DNA of 64,000 bases from an uncultured Acidimicrobiales bacterium (lineage in GTDB: Bacteria > Actinomycetota > Acidimicrobiia > Acidimicrobiales > CADCSY01), in contig CADCSY010000024.1 in NCBI GenBank assembly GCA_902805555.1, positions 1-64,000 of the forward strand, written 5' to 3'. Positions within the stretch are counted from its first letter, which is position 1, and every line of letters starts with the position of its first letter. A program made the translations under genes and the position numbers. Positions 12,596 to 13,204 of the stretch are shown one piece after another. The notes below the pieces were generated by a model. The model was given only the letters and a program-made list of their open reading frames with translations. It was not told the DNA's origin and made no database searches.

Positions 12596-13204
12596 TCAGC
12601 CCACGCTCGAGCCCGGGACGTCGGGGTACGCGAGGGGGCACGCCGGTGCGAGCGCCTCCTGCGTGGTGGGATCCACCTCCGTCAAGAAGGTGGCGTGGAA
12701 GCGGTTGATCATGTTGGACAGCCCGACCGTGAAGCAGAGCTCGATGATCTGCTCGTCGTCGAAGTGCTCGGCGAGGGCGCCGTAGGTGGCGTCGTCGATC
12801 ACGTCCATCCGGGTGGCGCGCTGGGCGTAGCGCACGATCGCCGCCTCATCAGGGTCGTAGAGACCCTCCGGGAGGGGGTCGTCACCGAGGTGGGCGAGCT
12901 TCTCCTCGGTCAGGCCTGCCGCTCGACCGAGCAGCACGTGGGTGGGGATTCAATAGTGGCAGTCGTTGGTGAGCGAGGCGGTGAGGTACGCGAGCTCCCG
13001 CTGCGCGGGGCTCATCGTGTTGTCGAAGTAGACGACGGTCCCGAACCTCACCATCGCGTCGAGGGCCCGAGGGTGGTTGGCGGCCGCCCGGTACACGTTG
13101 GGAGCCACGCTGCGGCCCCGAGTGCCGGTGACGCGGTCGAGGACCTCGCGGGCGAGCGGGTCGGCCCCCTCGTCCCCTGGGTCGACGAGCGGCAGCCGTC
13201 CCAT
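12596..13204 (-). CDS. Probable selenoprotein: AhpD/carboxymuconolactone decarboxylase family, CxxU motif
   Basis: One frame runs from ATG 13204 to 12596 with a single in-frame TGA at 12950-12952. Reading TGA as selenocysteine gives 202 residues with Sec at position 85 in the motif NDCHYUIPTH. The family's catalytic pattern is E...CxxCxxxH, so Sec replaces exactly the second redox Cys, and both flanks (RELAYLTASLT before, VLLGRAAGLTEEKLAHLGD after) are intact family sequence. A stable hairpin with loop GGUC starts 13 nt after the TGA (see 12917-12936). Such proteins are thiol peroxidases or disulfide reductases in peroxide defence. ATG 13204 has TACGGT seven bases upstream. A nonsense mutation or sequencing error is the alternative. 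Confidence 0.8.
12917..12936 (-). promoter_or_regulatory. SECIS-like hairpin downstream of the in-frame TGA
   Basis: On the minus strand TGCTGCTC (12936-12929) pairs with GAGCGGCA (12924-12917), including one G-U pair, around the four-base loop GGUC (12928-12925). The loop begins 21 nt after the UGA. Bacterial SECIS elements lie immediately 3' of the Sec codon, and the E. coli fdhF element, as I recall it, carries the same GGUC loop about 18 nt after its UGA. This supports recoding by SelB. Confidence 0.75.

Follow-up and report, generated by a model that had tools for sequence, protein, structure and literature searches.

The locus considered here raises the question of whether an in-frame TGA in a gene of the AhpD/CMD family marks a broken or misread gene or a codon decoded as selenocysteine, and, in the latter case, what the encoded enzyme might do. 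The gene lies on the minus strand of the window, by which we mean the whole stretch of 64,000 nucleotides analysed, from an uncultured Acidimicrobiales bacterium. Its principal features are as follows.

12596..13204, minus strand: predicted AhpD/CMD-family selenoprotein gene, 202 codons plus a TGA stop, the frame being open with the internal TGA read through
13204-13202, minus strand: ATG start of the gene, which aligns with the starts of its relatives
12950..12952, minus strand: in-frame TGA, predicted to be read as selenocysteine at residue 85, the second position of C82-H-Y-U85; TGA in 8/8 sub-group members and Cys in more distant homologues

The initial annotation placed a single in-frame TGA on the second Cys of the CxxCxxxH redox motif, described intact family sequence on both flanks, and anticipated that naive annotation would fragment the gene, and all three claims are borne out. 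The translation, MGRLPLVDPG...NDCHY-U-IPTHVLLGRAAGL...SSVG-stop, has 202 residues; the sole internal TGA is at 12952-12950 (residue 85), the terminal TGA stop is at 12598-12596, and the motif reads C82-H-Y-U85-I-P-T-H89 with TGA in place of the second Cys. A profile search matched PF02627 to residues 45-105, across the TGA, at 50.2 bits against a cut-off of 23, and codon-position GC is similar in both halves (GC3 of 0.93 before the TGA and 0.92 after it). Because the PF02627 match crosses the TGA and codon-position GC is alike, the two sides are halves of one protein. The ordinary ORF list splits the gene into 12950-13204 and 12596-12937 (84 and 113 aa), and with standard gene calling of this kind the enzyme is missed. 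We read the locus as a functional gene for an AhpD/CMD-fold selenoprotein in which TGA would be decoded as selenocysteine, with a probability of about 0.93.

The protein belongs to the CMD/AhpD superfamily, as defined by PF02627 and by TIGR00778 (34.9 bits, cut-off 27.8). An AlphaFold model made from seven sequences with Cys in place of Sec (pLDDT 82) has a predicted helical fold that matches AhpD structures in Foldseek with E values of 1e-6 to 1e-5 and TM scores of 0.7-0.8. Three further codons complete the putative active site.

12959..12961, minus strand: codon of Cys82, the presumed resolving cysteine of CxxU, invariant in aligned members and corresponding to the leading Cys of CxxC in AhpD-like proteins of known structure
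12995..12997, minus strand: codon of Glu70, the presumed proton-relay acid, invariant in aligned members and 12 residues before Cys82, with a role suggested by that in AhpD
12938..12940, minus strand: codon of His89, the presumed active-site histidine of CxxUxxxH, invariant, its role likewise suggested by AhpD

The active site of M. tuberculosis AhpD consists of Glu118, Cys130, Cys133 and His137. Glu70, Cys82, Sec85 and His89 are invariant in an alignment of seven members and have the AhpD active-site spacing, and Sec85 presumably occupies the place of the peroxidatic cysteine. By analogy Sec85 would be the peroxidatic and Cys82 the resolving residue, and Glu70 and His89 would probably form the proton relay; a selenenyl-sulfide intermediate would form and then be reset by a cellular thiol donor, as the chemistry of the family suggests. 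The reaction is most likely the reduction of a hydroperoxide or of some similar electrophile, and probably of a hydroperoxide in particular. A selenoprotein that uses this fold for another activity, such as thiol-disulfide or dehalogenating reduction, is unlikely but carries real weight, since proteins of the CMD fold have diverse functions, the debrominase Bmp8 is among the structural matches of the predicted fold, and Tyr84 stands where AhpD has His between its two redox cysteines. Arguing against such an activity are the AhpD spacing kept by the four active-site residues and the fact that the nearest named families are peroxidase-related.

Among 395 genomes of the class there is one close relative, in G064 (47% identity), and a search of 11 other genomes of the same family gave no close relative. 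The 396 genomes of the phylum yielded five more close copies, all from one other family and spread over four genomes (G455, G592, G553 and two in G465), and an additional, frame-shifted relative occurs in G764. These proteins are 46-58% identical to the window protein where aligned, and the Sec codon is TGA in all eight members of the sub-group (the window gene and seven relatives in six other genomes, spanning two families of the phylum). Such agreement on one codon far exceeds chance. A Cys version of the CHYUxPTH sub-group was found in none of the eight members examined. Alignment of Cys-containing homologues across the TGA, the check proposed at the outset, places Cys at the position of residue 85 in 2ouw, 2ijc and 6e8l and in proteins from Variovorax (CHYC) and Haloferula (CAYC); the PDB homologue 2gmy has Cys there as well. 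The Haloferula protein is one of two distant homologues, the only ones returned by a protein search of genome contigs, and the Variovorax protein is the one read across the motif in a plasmid search in which all relatives were below 60% identity.

These data bear directly on whether this could be a common CxxC AhpD gene in which the TGA arose by nonsense mutation or sequencing error, leaving a pseudogene or artefact. The assembly is a draft of 135 contigs, and frame shifts do occur in the extra G465 copy and in the G764 copy, which lends this explanation some credit. It is nevertheless very improbable and we reject it: the identical TGA recurs in eight copies from seven genomes at the identities given above, protein conservation carries on downstream of the TGA, and selenocysteine machinery is present in the host. 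Since seven other copies share the TGA, sequencing error, such as a misread TGC or TGT, is excluded in practice. The second G465 copy (L098) has its N-terminal part in a different frame from its Sec-containing part, reflecting either a frame shift or a decaying copy. ORF-level neighbourhoods of the window copy and its relatives contain no recognisable shared partner. Close to the left end of the window, at 17-91, is a tRNA-Arg (cct).

The selenocysteine machinery that the initial annotation implied for the host is encoded in its genome. In the assembly (2.93 Mb, 91% complete) tRNA-Sec scores 69.2 bits (cut-off 47), and ARAGORN calls this tRNA as tRNA-SeC with anticodon tca. SelA, selB and selD score 380, 265 and 322 bits against cut-offs of 268, 242 and 125, respectively, and selA adjoins selB on one contig. 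Absence of selB or selC had been named as the finding that would count against a selenoprotein; both are present in the same genome, and the selenoprotein reading stands. All six other genomes tested also have tRNA-Sec, namely the five with close copies and G544, which carries a more distant CNYU relative (G764 lay outside this set). Decoding of UGA as Trp or Cys through an altered genetic code or by a suppressor tRNA would likewise open the frame but otherwise found no support, and we reject it as of negligible probability, given that the window gene and the G064 relative themselves terminate in TGA, that no CxxC/CxxU homologue examined has Trp at the position of residue 85, and that the host has a genuine tRNA-Sec with SelA, SelB and SelD. 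No second host selenoprotein was found among CMD proteins, formate dehydrogenase-like proteins and SelD: the host SelD is without an internal TGA, and formate dehydrogenase was dropped as a candidate, its TIGR01591 matches scoring under the cut-off and containing no internal stops.

In the proposed selenocysteine mechanism, SelB with Sec-tRNA-Sec would recognise a GGUC-loop hairpin 21 nt downstream of the UGA at codon 85, and the comparative data support insertion of selenocysteine at this codon rather than termination.

12917..12936, minus strand: putative bacterial SECIS hairpin, UGCUGCUC-GGUC-GAGCGGCA, which fits the published bSECIS model and has conserved spacing and loop and a covarying stem

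The hairpin had been described as having a GGUC loop 21 nt from the TGA and a stem starting just 3' of it. The loop is as described, at 12928-12925 on the minus strand and starting 21 nt after the TGA; the stem was misplaced, and begins 14 nt after the TGA. With a stem of 8 bp, a 4-nt loop containing GG, the 21-nt distance and an energy of -12.3 kcal/mol, the structure falls within the published bSECIS constraints (model from the review PMC13188914). Taken alone the hairpin is weak evidence, because 18.7% of 4974 codons in the ORFs of this GC-rich window also satisfy those constraints. Stable hairpins form at the same place in some non-Sec homologues too, and hairpin energy alone was dropped as proof in light of these controls. 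Requiring a GGUC loop that is 4-6 nt long, sits on a stem of 7 bp or more and lies at the right distance leaves 0.15% of positions. An Rfam scan of the SECIS region gave no match. A competing hairpin, CUCGGUC...GACCGAG (window 12900-12952, minus strand), shares bases with the SECIS hairpin and has a lower energy than it in longer folds of the window RNA.

It is conservation, not the hairpin by itself, that in our comparison of relatives makes the case for a selenoprotein. In every copy (8/8) exactly 21 nt separate the TGA from the start of the apical loop. The loop sequence is GGUC in the window and GGUCG in six relatives, whose stems have 7-8 bp, and UGUCG in G764, the last assigned by reading the sequence. 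In seven sequences 98.2% of the alignment cells of the stem are paired, versus 30-54% for slid versions, and the covariation score is 0.333 versus 0.152 in shuffles, with 1 of 500 shuffles as high; the sequences are few and related, and an N was inserted manually into the window's loop, which is one base shorter than the others. Covariation is seen in the outer base pairs, and one stem pair switches from G-C to C-G through a synonymous Val change (GTC/GTG). The Gly codon of the loop is GGT in 7/7 copies versus 39 of 367 Gly codons (11%) in window genes, and the window gene has CGA, an infrequently used Arg codon, at the point where the stem requires it. Stem covariation backs a SECIS function as supporting rather than conclusive evidence. 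The loop conservation is partly a protein constraint, because GGUC falls within Leu-Gly-Arg codons and Leu-Gly-Arg is conserved as protein too.

Sec-containing AhpD-like proteins were rightly said to be known already. AhpD-like CxxU selenoproteins were reported in 2005 in a Sargasso Sea set (PMC1088965), and a 2026 review lists them, mapped to TIGR01926 (PMC13188914). The Sargasso Sea proteins and the window protein are alike in the AhpD/CMD fold, the second-position Sec in CxxU and a SECIS directly downstream. What sets the window protein apart from the known CxxU set is its membership of a distinct sub-group, marked by CHYUxPTH and by a GGUC SECIS at a constant 21 nt. It scores 54.6 bits with TIGR01926 (peroxidase-related enzyme), below the cut-off of 81.8, and is outside that family. 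Two related AhpD-domain families are annotated as (seleno)proteins, AhpD_rel_CFYUT (NF041238) and YciW-related (seleno)protein (NF053654), and the window protein, which scores 23 bits with the former (cut-off 175) and 31 bits with the latter (cut-off 310), is a member of neither. The Cys-containing AhpD-like structures 2ouw, 2ijc, 6e8l and 3lvy share its fold and active-site spacing and have Cys where it has Sec, at 20-31% identity. Judged from these comparisons, the window protein is an AhpD-like CxxU selenoprotein of known type that forms its own sub-group within the superfamily, because it lies below the cut-offs of TIGR01926, NF041238 and NF053654. Somewhat short of even odds, and hence only tentatively, we suggest that the CHYUxPTH proteins of Actinomycetota make up an AhpD sub-family of their own that is exclusively Sec-containing, no Cys form having been found; it would be distributed patchily among Sec-trait genomes (probably by horizontal transfer), with a GGUC SECIS at a nearly constant 21 nt as its unifying feature.

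The sub-group escapes standard models, falling below the cut-offs of existing full-length families, and the eight genes with their covarying SECIS supply an alignment and a hairpin model that can be used to find it. They also suggest that the Sec trait is being used in a class that commonly has tRNA-Sec (245/395 genomes) and for which a literature search on selenocysteine together with Acidimicrobiia turned up a single paper. Further candidates were encountered among CMD-family genes. G064 has two CMD-family selenoprotein candidates, one at L078:1378-1962 with NRCHY-TGA-LSTH and one at L079:1453-1953 with TDCGY-TGA-RNVR, in which a GGUC loop follows the TGA at 17 nt. In G553 a CMD-like gene with an in-frame TGA (L095:789-1500, NQAEY-TGA-GPHH) lies directly upstream of the CxxU relative and is possibly a Sec protein without a resolving Cys. 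The more distant CMD protein of G544 (L097:1501-2043) reads ECNY-TGA-QSHG, and its hairpin loop starts 20-21 nt away.
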